A stretch of DNA of 64,000 nucleotides from Pseudalkalibacillus salsuginis (lineage in GTDB: Bacteria > Bacillota > Bacilli > Bacillales > Fictibacillaceae): positions 372,001 to 436,000 of the forward strand of contig NZ_JAKJHW010000001.1 in assembly GCF_021646685.1 (NCBI RefSeq), read 5' to 3'. This document shows positions 1,711-44,883 of this stretch, piece after piece. How positions within the stretch are numbered: position 1 is the stretch's first letter; each line of letters opens with the position of its first letter. The notes under the pieces were generated by a model, which was not told the origin of the DNA, did not search any database, and worked only from the letters and a program-made list of their open reading frames with translations. The position numbers were made by a program, and so were the translations under genes.

Positions 1711-1880
1711 AAGAAAAGCGGAATCGCCCTGTTTAGCCACAAAGGTCACTGGAAGTCCGACGAGGAGGCTCGAACCAAACAGTTCGGTTCTGCGTGGGTA
1801 ACACTTTGACCTGAATCAATGTGTCGGCCGCCGCAGGAGGTCTGAAGTGAGCCAAGTGGTTGGGCGATGAAGCTGGACAT
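1711..1880 (+). repeat. Dispersed ~170-bp structured repeat, copy 1 (full length)
   Basis: Shares long near-identical blocks with 31591-31762, 36670-36820 and 44721-44836. Landmarks are AAGAAAAGCGGAA, CACTGGAAGTCCGACGAGG, CGAACCAAACAGTTCGGTTC, CAATGTGTCGGCCGCCGCAG and CCAAGTGGTTGGGCG, ending at GGACAT. The ends can pair (TCGCCC at 1724-1729 with GGGCGA near 1862-1867) and an internal GAACC/GGTTC hairpin is present. No coding sequence is evident. A 17-bp repeat of its first bases follows immediately. Confidence 0.9.
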
Positions 1881-1881
1881 C

Positions 1882-1898
1882 AAGAAAAGCGGAATCGC
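1882..1898 (+). repeat. 17-bp fragment of the dispersed repeat, tandem to copy 1
   Basis: Identical to the first 17 bases of copy 1 (AAGAAAAGCGGAATCGC), starting one base after that copy ends. It is either the remnant of a second tandem insertion or a target-side duplication. Confidence 0.7.
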
Positions 1899-1930
1899 TG
1901 ACTGAGTGTTTAACACACTTATCTAACGAT

Positions 1931-1962
1931 AAAAGAACAGCTGACATTTCAGCTGTTCTTTT
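1931..1962. terminator. Bidirectional terminator between permease and kinase genes
   Basis: A perfect 14-bp stem, AAAAGAACAGCTGA / TCAGCTGTTCTTTT, with a 4-base loop. A/T runs on both sides serve both convergent genes. Its right arm encodes the last codons and stop of the kinase gene. Confidence 0.85.
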
Positions 1963-42168: not shown

Positions 42169-44004
42169 TTACTTCTTCTCGTTATCGTCGTTTACCTCTT
42201 CGTAATCAGCATCTACGACATCATCATTTTGCGTTTTCTGATTGTCTTCGCCTTCTTGAGCAGCTTGAGCTTGCTGGGCAGCTTGCTCGTAAAGCTTTGT
42301 GGATAGCTCCTGGACAACCTGTTGCAATTCATCTTTAGCAGAACGGATTGCTTCTAGATCATCACCTTCTAGAGCTTTTTTAACTTTATCTTTTGCTTCA
42401 TTCGCCTTCGTTACTTCAGCTTCGTCTACGTTACCTTCAAGATCTTTCAATGTCTTTTCAGTTGTGAAAACAAGTTGATCTGCTTCATTGCGAAGGTCTA
42501 CTGCTTCACGGCGTTTCTTATCCGCTTCTGCGTTTTCTTCCGCATCCTTCACCATATTTTCGATTTCTTCTTCAGAAAGTCCTGAAGAGGAAGTGATCGT
42601 GATGGATTGTTCTTTGTTTGTTCCAAGATCCTTCGCTTTAACGTTTACGATACCGTTCGCATCAATATCGAATGAGACTTCGATTTGTGGTACTCCACGT
42701 GGTGCCGGCGGAATATCGGTCAATTGGAAGCGTCCAAGCGTTTTATTGTCTGCAGCCATCTCACGCTCACCTTGGAGAACGTGGATATCAACGGATGGCT
42801 GATTATCAGCAGCTGTTGAGAAGACTTGGGACTTACTTGTAGGGATTGTTGTATTACGTTCGATAAGCTTCGTATTCACCCCGCCCATTGTTTCGATTCC
42901 TAGAGATAGGGGAGTTACGTCAAGTAGAACGACATCTTTTACATCACCTGTCATTACACCCGCTTGGATCGCAGCTCCTAATGCAACCACTTCATCCGGG
43001 TTGACACCCTTGTGAGGATCTTTTCCTGTGATTTTCTTAATTGCTTCTTGTACAGCTGGGATACGTGTAGATCCACCAACCAGGACTATTTTGTCAATTT
43101 CAGAAGGTGTAAGGCCAGCATCTTTGATCGCCTGACGAGTTGGCCCCATTGTACGTTCTACAAGCCCGGAAGTCATCTCATCGAACTTGGCACGGGATAG
43201 GTTCACTTCCAAATGCTTAGGACCAGATGCATCGGCTGTGATGAACGGTAATGAAATTTGTGTCTGCGTTACTCCAGAAAGGTCTTTCTTCGCTTTTTCG
43301 GCAGCATCCTTCAAACGTTGTAGAGCCATTTTGTCTTGAGAAAGGTCGATCCCGTTTTCCTTTTTGAATTCGCTGACGAGATAGTCGATGATGGCCTGAT
43401 CGAAGTCATCTCCACCTAGTTTGTTGTCCCCAGATGTTGCTTTGACTTCGAAGAAACCGTCTCCCAGCTCAAGAAGCGAAACGTCGAACGTTCCACCACC
43501 CAAGTCATAAACAAGGATCGTTTGGTCATCTTCTTTTTCAAGACCATATGCTAGAGCAGCAGCAGTCGGCTCATTGATGATACGTTCAACTTCCAAACCG
43601 GCAATCTTACCCGCATCTTTTGTAGCTTGACGTTGAGAGTCATTGAAGTAAGCAGGTACAGTGATGACAGCCTTCGAAACCTTCTCCCCAAGATATGCTT
43701 CAGCGTCAGATTTAAGTTTTTGAAGGATGATTGCTGAAACTTCTTGCGGAGTGTATTCTTTTCCTTCTGCATCAACTTTATAATTCGTTCCCATATGACG
43801 CTTGATCGAAATGATGGTGTTCGGATTCGTAACCGCTTGACGCTTGGCAACCTCTCCTACTAGACGCTCTCCATCTTTAAAGGCAACGACAGATGGTGTC
43901 GTACGATTTCCTTCGGGATTCGGTATGACGGTTGCTTCCCCGCCTTCCATTACTGCAACACAAGAGTTAGTTGTACCTAAGTCAATACCAATTACTTTGC
44001 TCAT
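42169..44004 (-). CDS. dnaK: Chaperone DnaK (Hsp70)
   Basis: A 611-residue Hsp70. The ATPase domain starts [20 protein letters not shown] and includes [15 protein letters not shown] and [11 protein letters not shown]; the linker [14 protein letters not shown] leads into the substrate-binding domain and a helical lid. The C-terminus is Gln/Ala-rich and ends in an acidic [10 protein letters not shown]. The deletion in the nucleotide-binding domain typical of Gram-positive DnaK is consistent with its length. It lies between grpE and dnaJ. Confidence 0.99.
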
Positions 44005-44074
44005 GACAATTCCTCCTATTTTAGTATGTAGCTTTAATTTTTAGTTTGGAAATTCAAATTCTTTATCTAGAAAT

Positions 44075-44656
44075 CTACTTGGAATTCACTTTCACCATTG
44101 CAGGACGGACAACTCGATCTTTCAATTTGTAGCCCTTTTGCAGGACTTCAACGACCGTGTTGTCATCATAGCCGTCCTCTTGAACTTGCATGACAGCCTG
44201 ATGTTGGTGAGGATCAAATGCCTCTCCTTCGCCTGGTACTTCTTCTACCCCTTGATTCTGAAGTACCTCGATCAATTGATTATAAACCATCTTCATTCCT
44301 TGATGATAAGAATCAACTTGTTCACGATCAGTCTGTACATTCAATGCGCGTTCAAAGTTATCAAGGACTGGAAGTAACTCTTCTACGATCCCCTGGGCTC
44401 GATATTTTGCAGCCGCTTCTTTTTCCTCTCGGGTACGGCGGCGGAAATTATCATAGTCTGCCTGAACACGGATCATACGATTTTTTATATCTTCGAGTTC
44501 CTTTTCTAGTTCAGTCACTCGGTCGTCTTCTTCATTTTCCAGATCAATTGCATCATCGCTGGATTCTTCGGCCTTTTCTTCCGCAGATTCCTCTTGGGAT
44601 TCTTCAATTTCTTCTTCATTCTCTTGAACGTCTTGCTGTTGTTTGTTTTCTTCCAT
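44075..44656 (-). CDS. grpE: Nucleotide exchange factor GrpE
   Basis: A 193-residue GrpE: a very acidic, disordered N-terminus (Glu/Gln-rich, residues 1-45), a long coiled coil (about 46-100, [17 protein letters not shown]) and the C-terminal beta domain with VVRPAMVKV. It releases ADP from DnaK. The ATG at 44656 follows GGAGG by 8 bases. The 347-bp gap to hrcA is far longer than in B. subtilis because of a repeat copy and a hairpin. Confidence 0.97.
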
Positions 44657-44720
44657 TTCATTCACCTCCCTGAACTAGTCAATACCTAATTTAACGATTG
44701 GTTTTTATCAAAAGCATGAT

Positions 44721-44883
44721 AAAGAAAAGCACATGCGCCCTGATCAGCCACGAAGGTCACTGGAAGTCCATCGAGGAGGTTTTCGCCGCCGCAGGAGGAC
44801 TGAAGTGATCCAAGTGGTTGGGCGTTGGAGCCAATATCACTTCACCGCAACCAAAATTTTTATACTTTCTTATCCTTTAAAAA
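44721..44883 (+). repeat. Dispersed structured repeat, copy 4 (middle deleted)
   Basis: The 5' part, GCGCCCTGATCAGCCACGAAG to GAAGTCCATCGAGGAGG, joins directly to TCGCCGCCGCAGGAGGACTG, losing about 60 bases of the centre. The 3' end CCAAGTGGTTGGGCGTTGGAGC and the tail TTCACCGCAACCAAAATTTT are retained. It sits inside the hrcA-grpE gap. Confidence 0.9.

Follow-up and report, generated by a model that had tools for sequence, protein, structure and literature searches.

A short mobile repeat docked behind transcription terminators with one polarity in Pseudalkalibacillus salsuginis

The 64,000-nucleotide stretch of the Pseudalkalibacillus salsuginis genome analysed here (contig NZ_JAKJHW010000001.1, positions 372,001 to 436,000; the window) contains several copies of a structured repeat, F1, which is best explained as a short mobile repeat, non-autonomous and belonging to an old Bacillales family. 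F1 is almost certainly a mobile element, its insertion is very probably biased to terminator T-tracts in one polarity, and it has moved since the source genome (G000; 4.29 Mb, 19 contigs) split from its close relative G005. An earlier note on this DNA had described five places with one repeat in one orientation, each followed by a hairpin and the 3' end of a minus-strand gene; this description held, and our terminator scan found a terminator at all five. The repeat is well beyond chance, since its core 22-mer (up to 3 mismatches) had 219 matches genome-wide and a reversed control had 1. The interpretation offered at that time was partly supported. A non-autonomous mobile element at terminators was borne out by nine empty sites, by 51 of 64 tailed arrays at terminators against 16.9% of random intergenic positions, and by the fixed orientation, whereas an antisense or 3'-end RNA gained little, as the terminators vary by locus and precede insertion and covariation is modest.

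F1 was analysed in a working sample of 860 kb, comprising the window and 40 further stretches of G000 (contig labels C7 and C17 below). Most stretches were picked because they hold copies, so copy densities in the sample are inflated; orientation and context played no part in the choice. A custom gene caller predicted 734 genes covering 75% of the bases, indicating that some genes were overlooked. One or several F1 profile matches at one place were counted as an array, and the 117 matches fell into 94 arrays, of which 18 contained at least two matches. Ten arrays were removed by a text rule as palindrome-flanked variants, leaving 84 typical arrays. Terminators (hairpin plus T-run) were called with a custom scan and assigned to an array when within 75 bp of the 3' profile end, which falls about 20-25 bp before the true element end. 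The leading strand was set for each stretch by GC skew as the G-rich strand, a relation established for this bacterial group.

The left end of F1 is AAGAAAAGCG, and its units are about 117 or 173 bp long. Within the body, part A (profile positions 1-60) pairs with part B (116-173), and between them some units carry an additional module of some 55 bp (61-115). Only the unit nearest the terminator bears a tail, roughly 48 bp long (...AAAATTTTTATACTTTCTTATCCTT). One boundary of the element is AAGAAAAGCG; at the opposite boundary, TTATCCTT gives way to a host A-run. Inner units stand head to tail with a constant junction, position 173 running into position 1; the same type of junction (GGAGCTAGACA, then AAGAAAAGCG) was found in a tandem array of G134, a genome of another family (locus L198). 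The number of intact left ends varied in 13 of the 35 arrays common to G000 and G005, and seven more differed in length by over 40 bp, the inner modules varying in number at one site as expected of a BOX-like modular repeat. The longest open frames of copy 2 were short and unremarkable. The F1 ends AAAGAAAAGC and reverse-complemented AAAGGATAAGAAAG had little likeness by eye, and a repeat search with a minimum length of 40 bp revealed no terminal inverted repeats of that length or longer in the window.

Movement of F1 was evident from G005, which is 95-97% identical to G000 and collinear around the window copies. On C7, 27 of 40 G000 arrays were comparable (13 were not), 19 of them common and 8 missing; on part of C17, 22 of 26 were comparable (4 were not), with 16 common and 6 missing. 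Thus 14 of 49 comparable arrays were missing from G005. By eye, the alignments indicated for nine of these absences that F1 had entered an already existing site; these are window copies 2, 3 and 5, C7:180391, C7:364464, C7:368710 (an internally deleted copy), C17:116361, C17:147075 and C17:232048. No target-site duplication was found in the nine empty sites, the ambiguity being 0-1 bp. The right boundary was at the A-run in all nine, and the left junction was clean at C7:364464 and C17:232048. For copy 5 the empty site reads GCATGATTAAAAATGGGAG and the filled site GCATGAT, element, TAAAAATGGGAG. Five absences were not counted as insertions. C7:65038 is a deletion in G005, because a left-end remnant stays there; C7:136430, C17:143404 and C17:226759 are palindrome-flanked variants, remnants or unclear alignments; and C17:236454 is F1 in G000 with the second family, F2 (a repeat with a different body), at the same site in G005.

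The landing site was equally distinctive, with orientation and terminator association both far from random when tabulated. An opposite-strand terminator lay within 75 bp of the 3' end in 62 of 84 typical arrays, and 33 also had a same-strand one there; at the 5' end, same-strand and opposite-strand terminators were found in 11 and 10 arrays, respectively. None of the 94 arrays lay inside a predicted gene. The minus strand, with respect to the element, was the leading strand in 77 of the 84 typical arrays, and this orientation rule was followed by 84 of 94 arrays overall. Among the 64 tailed arrays, 51 abutted a terminator and 62 followed the rule, including all 51 at terminators; in the same proportion (62/64), the strand reading terminator, T-run, element was the lagging-strand template. 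The two exceptions, L023:5017 and L026:15918, look like variants that escaped the text rule. The 20 tail-less typical arrays were oriented 15 to 5, with a terminator in 11. Of the ten palindrome-flanked variants, 7 obeyed the strand rule and 3 did not, and a terminator was present in 3. All 26 arrays in the part of C17 ran in one direction. As controls, 5000 random intergenic positions and 865 same-strand intergenic A-runs had a terminator in fractions of 0.169 and 0.311, respectively, the A-runs being scanned over 30 bp rather than the 75 bp of the array test. The polarity of F1 is fixed relative to a T-run, which in most cases belongs to an intrinsic terminator.

Small bacterial repeats are usually ascribed to miniature inverted-repeat transposable element (MITE) or repetitive extragenic palindromic (REP) mechanisms. 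F1 could be such a repeat, with a Y1 or double-strand transposase moving it and no role for the replication fork, terminators being simply tolerated and orientation resulting from the T-run and the excess of leading-strand genes. We consider this rather unlikely, although the absence of arrays from predicted genes is consistent with it, as is the location on the leading strand of 82.8% (202/244) of the gene terminators in the stretches. The terminators used by F1 were 60 leading and 2 lagging, compared with 202 and 42 for all gene terminators (Fisher p 0.004; the comparison is approximate, since the gene-terminator set was filtered with a tighter energy threshold and limited to terminators no more than 120 bp from a gene). 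This under-use of lagging-strand gene terminators (2/62 vs 42/244) suggests that gene direction alone is insufficient for the strand rule. Mere tolerance, moreover, yields no single polarity, and 69% of the 865 A-runs had no terminator, yet 51 of the 64 tailed arrays were at terminators. The lack of long inverted repeats in the window and of target duplications also argues against a MITE-like origin.

Far less probable still is an immobile family of antisense or small RNA genes ending at a host terminator that is often bidirectional. The plus-strand fold, obtained from 34 aligned copies (29 from G000, 5 from relatives), has an arm stem and inner hairpins. In the arm stem, pairing holds in 96.6% of cells, and both sides are changed in 5 of the 37 pairs, whereas shuffles gave a mean of 1.8 such pairs and reached 5 in 6 of 500 cases. 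However, slid controls gave 2 to 7, indicating that the covariation is modest. The outer stem had more G-U than A-C cells, chiefly at two columns. Copy 2 with its terminator had a fold z of -3.8, as an RNA gene might, but copy 2 alone folded no better than shuffles (z -0.3 for plus-strand DNA, -1.0 for minus-strand RNA). The same-strand terminators at the 3' side of 33 of 84 typical arrays would also suit RNA genes; against them stand the presence differing at 14 of 49 places between close relatives, the left-end number differing in 13 of 35 common arrays, and terminators that differ by locus and are already present in the empty sites. No Rfam covariance model (e.g., Bacillaceae-1) matched F1, and no description of it was recognised in the literature, which was largely open-access and included one older list of Bacillaceae families (PMC2267715) in part. 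Neither outcome that the earlier note would have taken as refutation arose, orientation and terminator association being non-random and F1 corresponding to no described family that these comparisons covered.

The mechanism that we favor, at roughly even odds, is fork-linked single-strand insertion of a non-autonomous F1. On the lagging-strand template, T-tracts lying 3' of hairpins would receive the element while single-stranded, and a putative trans-acting enzyme, either HUH/Y1-like or a group-II-like reverse transcriptase, would carry out the insertion. Head-to-tail arrays would then change length locally. Such an insertion place would be harmless because it lies behind transcription.

Several observations weigh against this reading. 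The scan detected no terminator at 13 of 64 tailed arrays; in favor of the reading, however, 5 of the 11 of these that follow the orientation rule have an opposite-direction gene at the 3' side. The left junction was untidy at copy 3, where about 40 bp of G005 left-side DNA have no G000 counterpart, and at C7:180391, which has 9 extra bases. In the reverse comparison, 42 G005 arrays were comparable (6 of 29 on G005 contig C1 and 3 of 22 on C92 were not) and 7 were missing in G000, but a typical, clean empty site was seen at none of these 7 places: G000 carries a remnant at G005:C1:411436, and the remainder were palindrome-flanked variants or badly aligned. Outside the genus the strand rule was weaker, 13 to 5 in 20-kb stretches of G134, G283, G240 and G162, and in G294 the orientation was reversed in 8 of 8 cases, next to 23S rRNA by eye (L215-L219); the rule is therefore strongest in the genus of the window. 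The consensus fold was more stable on the plus strand (-29 kcal/mol) than on the minus strand (-16), whereas a Y1 enzyme would read the other strand. No mobilising enzyme was found in searches of G000 and its relatives, and a search of G000 for Y1 transposases returned none but one gene resembling the REP-associated tyrosine transposases (RAYT). Among the 50 genomes with at least 10 copies of the F1 end motif (high-copy genomes), 14 had no RAYT-like match and 17 no RVT_1 match. Two of them (G114 and G219) had neither, showing that neither enzyme is required for the presence of copies.

The RAYT-like gene of G000 matched NF047646 at 65.7 bits, below the curated cut-off of 80. It is flanked by another repeat (GGTGCCAGGCAC), and F1 was near only 1 of 10 RAYT loci (that of G000), while a GTGCC[AT]GGCAC repeat was near 7 of the 10. 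A RAYT-like match (NF047646, E 0.001) was present in 36 of the 50 high-copy genomes and in 151 of 249 others (p 0.15); an RVT_1 match was present in 33 and 121, respectively (p 0.03), both p values being computed from hand-transcribed lists and ignoring the kinship of the 299 genomes. RAYT was rejected as the mobiliser, given the other repeats beside it and the 14 high-copy genomes without a match. As a separate observation, GGTGCCAGGCAC repeats stand in front of the RAYT-like gene at L129:1000-1300 and near 7 of the 10 RAYT loci (L130-L139), and elsewhere in the genome paired inverted GGTGCCAGGCAC copies about 49 bp apart resemble a small REPIN family.

Two other candidates were also rejected. 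For an autonomous copy with F1 ends, the 50 tail-like strings in the 860 kb comprised 27 in F1, 5 in F2 and 18 in neither; at least 2 of the 18 are F1 and F2 remnants, and none resembled the end of a coding element by eye. A TA duplication of the IS630 type does not fit, the base pair before AAGAAAAGC being mostly not TA by eye and the empty sites having no TA duplication. The ends of five Y1 loci of relatives (L140-L144) differed from F1 by eye. IS200-like elements of relatives (L141, L142 and L144) were seen by eye directly behind a hairpin and T-run in the gene sense, and the one at L141 adjoins an F1 copy.

An RNA-mediated route, in which a plus-strand RNA primed on the T-run (or spliced in) is copied by a group-II-type reverse transcriptase, seems improbable but has points in its favor. 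In the accessible part of PMC8919778, bacterial-C (group IIC) introns insert just behind Rho-independent terminators on the lagging-strand template, a landing site, gene sense and strand identical to those of F1 in all 51 terminator arrays; this likeness counts for the fork-linked reading as well. G000 encodes a group II reverse transcriptase (TIGR04416), and G005 has a group II intron (L177:908) directly behind a hairpin. The excess of RVT_1 in high-copy genomes and a fold conserved on the plus strand point the same way. However, RVT_1 was missing from 17 of the 50 high-copy genomes, and a group II reverse transcriptase was therefore rejected as the sole mobiliser; RVT_1 was also missing from G004, G006 and G007, members of the genus with some copies. 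Unlike group IIC introns, F1 has no intron RNA, intron ends, domain V or reverse transcriptase of its own. Rfam group II models had no match in the window at the gathering score and, with E values up to 10 allowed, none in the surroundings of copies 2 and 3, while the genuine group II introns of G000 and G005 did match. Target-primed reverse transcription with 5'-truncation was rejected as well, copies being shortened at either end with no clear bias by eye.

Compared with other known systems, F1 resembles the insertion sequence (IS) families IS200/IS605 and the RAYT/REP elements in its strand, its hairpins and its lack of duplication, but differs in having no transposase gene. IS200/IS605 elements are not known to make a target duplication. 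No element of G000 beyond RAYT was a candidate autonomous IS200/IS605 partner for the F1 ends. The available text of PMC6006769 describes single-strand insertion of IS200/IS605 into the lagging-strand template and REP hairpins of 21-65 nt with a GT[AG]G foot. F1 fails as the REP of the resident RAYT, as it stands near RAYT genes at only the one locus and is not tied to RAYT presence, and it is unlike a classical MITE in having no target-site duplication. F1 is thus neither an intron, a classical MITE nor an evident partner of the resident RAYT. BOX of Streptococcus pneumoniae, a small modular repeat whose inner tandem modules vary in number according to the part of PMC3049150 available to us, is like F1 in its modular tandem build; the two were compared by description only. 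The same portion of that source gives leading-strand shares of 60.8% for BOX (mirroring gene direction), 60.9% for RUP and 63.3% for SPRITE, in contrast to 62 of 64 in F1, and tells of no terminator docking for BOX. The accessible text of PMC3733652 places bcr1, a repeat of the Bacillus cereus group, with the MITEs that have terminal inverted repeats, and Bhal-1 of B. halodurans has 74 bp and 36 copies in Table 3 of PMC2267715, a source available in part. Both are, like F1, short structured intergenic Bacillaceae repeats, again compared by description only; on that basis Bhal-1 might be a relative of F1. F1 is a small non-autonomous repeat of a known sort that has an unusual docking rule.

F2 starts with AAAGAAAA and ends with TATACTTTCTTAACG (short forms TATGCTTTCTTATAGTG and similar), followed by an A-run and usually a hairpin. 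In the 860 kb, 10 of 11 F2 matches kept the F1-like strand relation; the one at L030, a weak match, did not. At C17:116361, insertion of F1 has separated an F2 copy from the T-run. In Bacillus sp. Marseille-Q3570 (L052), an F2-like element was seen by eye at the hrcA-grpE site that F1 occupies in the window. Two different bodies at one landing site suggest shared machinery. A tentative extension, to which we give somewhat less credence than to fork-linked insertion itself, is that F1 and F2 form a hitherto unrecognised terminator-docking class with shared short ends, one trans-acting enzyme and fork insertion into Bacillales terminator T-tracts, a class that would occupy the niche of group IIC introns while being neither introns nor classical transposons.

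Across the order, a long query matched 11 of 60 genomes, namely every genome of the genus (8, counting G000) and, over 27-48 bp only, 3 from a different genus. The end motif GGCGCTGGAGCTAGACA (up to 1 mismatch) was found in 121 of 299 genomes and 56 of 116 genera, and its reversed control gave 0 among the matches listed. Of four loci of other genera with GGAGCT[AG]GACA, one was coding DNA; in the other three the motif was joined to an AAAAGC-like left end and, by eye, preceded a hairpin resembling a terminator. Most of the 23 motif places in 20 further loci had a left end within 330 bp, and several had a tail-like string. A terminator was present at 12 of 21 matches without a following tandem unit (G134, G283, G240, G162 and G294). 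One of the G294 units with the end motif (L201), in another family, lies in a 16S-23S rRNA spacer, as confirmed by Rfam. F1 unites recent duplication-free movement, a strand rule with hardly any exceptions and a restricted landing site with an end motif spread over much of the order. The many natural insertions with empty counterparts are a resource for seeking the mobilising enzyme, and the F1 sites offer a direct test of a hairpin and T-run on the lagging-strand template as a general docking site.

Within the window all copies are on the plus strand and their terminators on the minus strand. The minus-strand neighbours named in the earlier note (kinase, floA operon, deoC, dnaK and hrcA) agreed with Pfam, which identified histidine kinase, deoC, floA, DnaK and HrcA. 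Copy 1 (1711-1881; sequence reading and profile) is a long unit with no tail, and the same place is occupied in G005. The stretch 1882-1898 is repeat DNA, as had been proposed, not as a loose fragment but as the start of a second tandem unit, its junction being like that of other arrays. The terminator hairpin behind the histidine kinase gene follows at 1931-1962; like the four hairpins below, it was seen by eye and by the terminator scan. A plus-strand permease gene ends 5 bp before copy 1, so this site is convergent.

A tail common to copies 2-4 had been proposed; it is in fact shared by copies 2, 3 and 5, as the place at 42025 has none. Copy 2 (31591-31792; profile; missing in G005) is a long unit with tail, ending in ATCCTT, and adjoins an A-run (minus-strand T-run) and terminator hairpin at 31794-31829; the adjoining open reading frame (31835-32314) is directly downstream of floA. 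Copy 3 (36670-36860; profile; missing in G005) is a long unit with small deletions and a tail; next to it, at 36862-36917, come an A-run and the imperfect terminator hairpin of deoC. The place at 42025-42092 had been counted as a copy, but is a tail-less remnant of a palindrome-flanked F1 variant by the text rule, with a weak 45-bp profile match (42025-42069) and a longer form at the same place in G005; the terminator hairpin behind dnaK is at 42122-42157. Copy 5 (44721-44877; profile; clean empty site in G005, locus L051) is a short unit with tail that adjoins an A-run and the hrcA terminator hairpin (44879-44906), the hairpin also being present in the empty site. Copy 5 and its hairpin lie between hrcA and grpE (44666-45003), inside the hrcA-grpE-dnaK-dnaJ cluster, which may therefore be transcribed as several transcripts. 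The inventory of five copies and a fragment was incomplete, as it overlooked a different element with a similar tail, an F2 copy at 49454-49579 (plus strand; sequence reading and family search) with the ends AAAGAAAA ... TATACTTTCTTAACG, then an A-run and hairpin.

Further repeats were noted in and around these sites. A palindromic repeat with arms like AAATTCACTCCCTTTCCGCGGG and CCCGCAGGAGTGTCGTGAATTT occurs at 49368-49400 of the window and at L044:1759, L043:2763, L031:14225 and other places; it often surrounds tail-less F1 variants, and orientation is less strict there. Another dispersed repeat of about 42 bp, its copies 83% alike, is at window positions 17841-17882 and 18863-18904, and a string resembling it (TATAGATGGTTGTTTAACAATTTGGAAA) flanks the F1 variant at G005:C1:95336.

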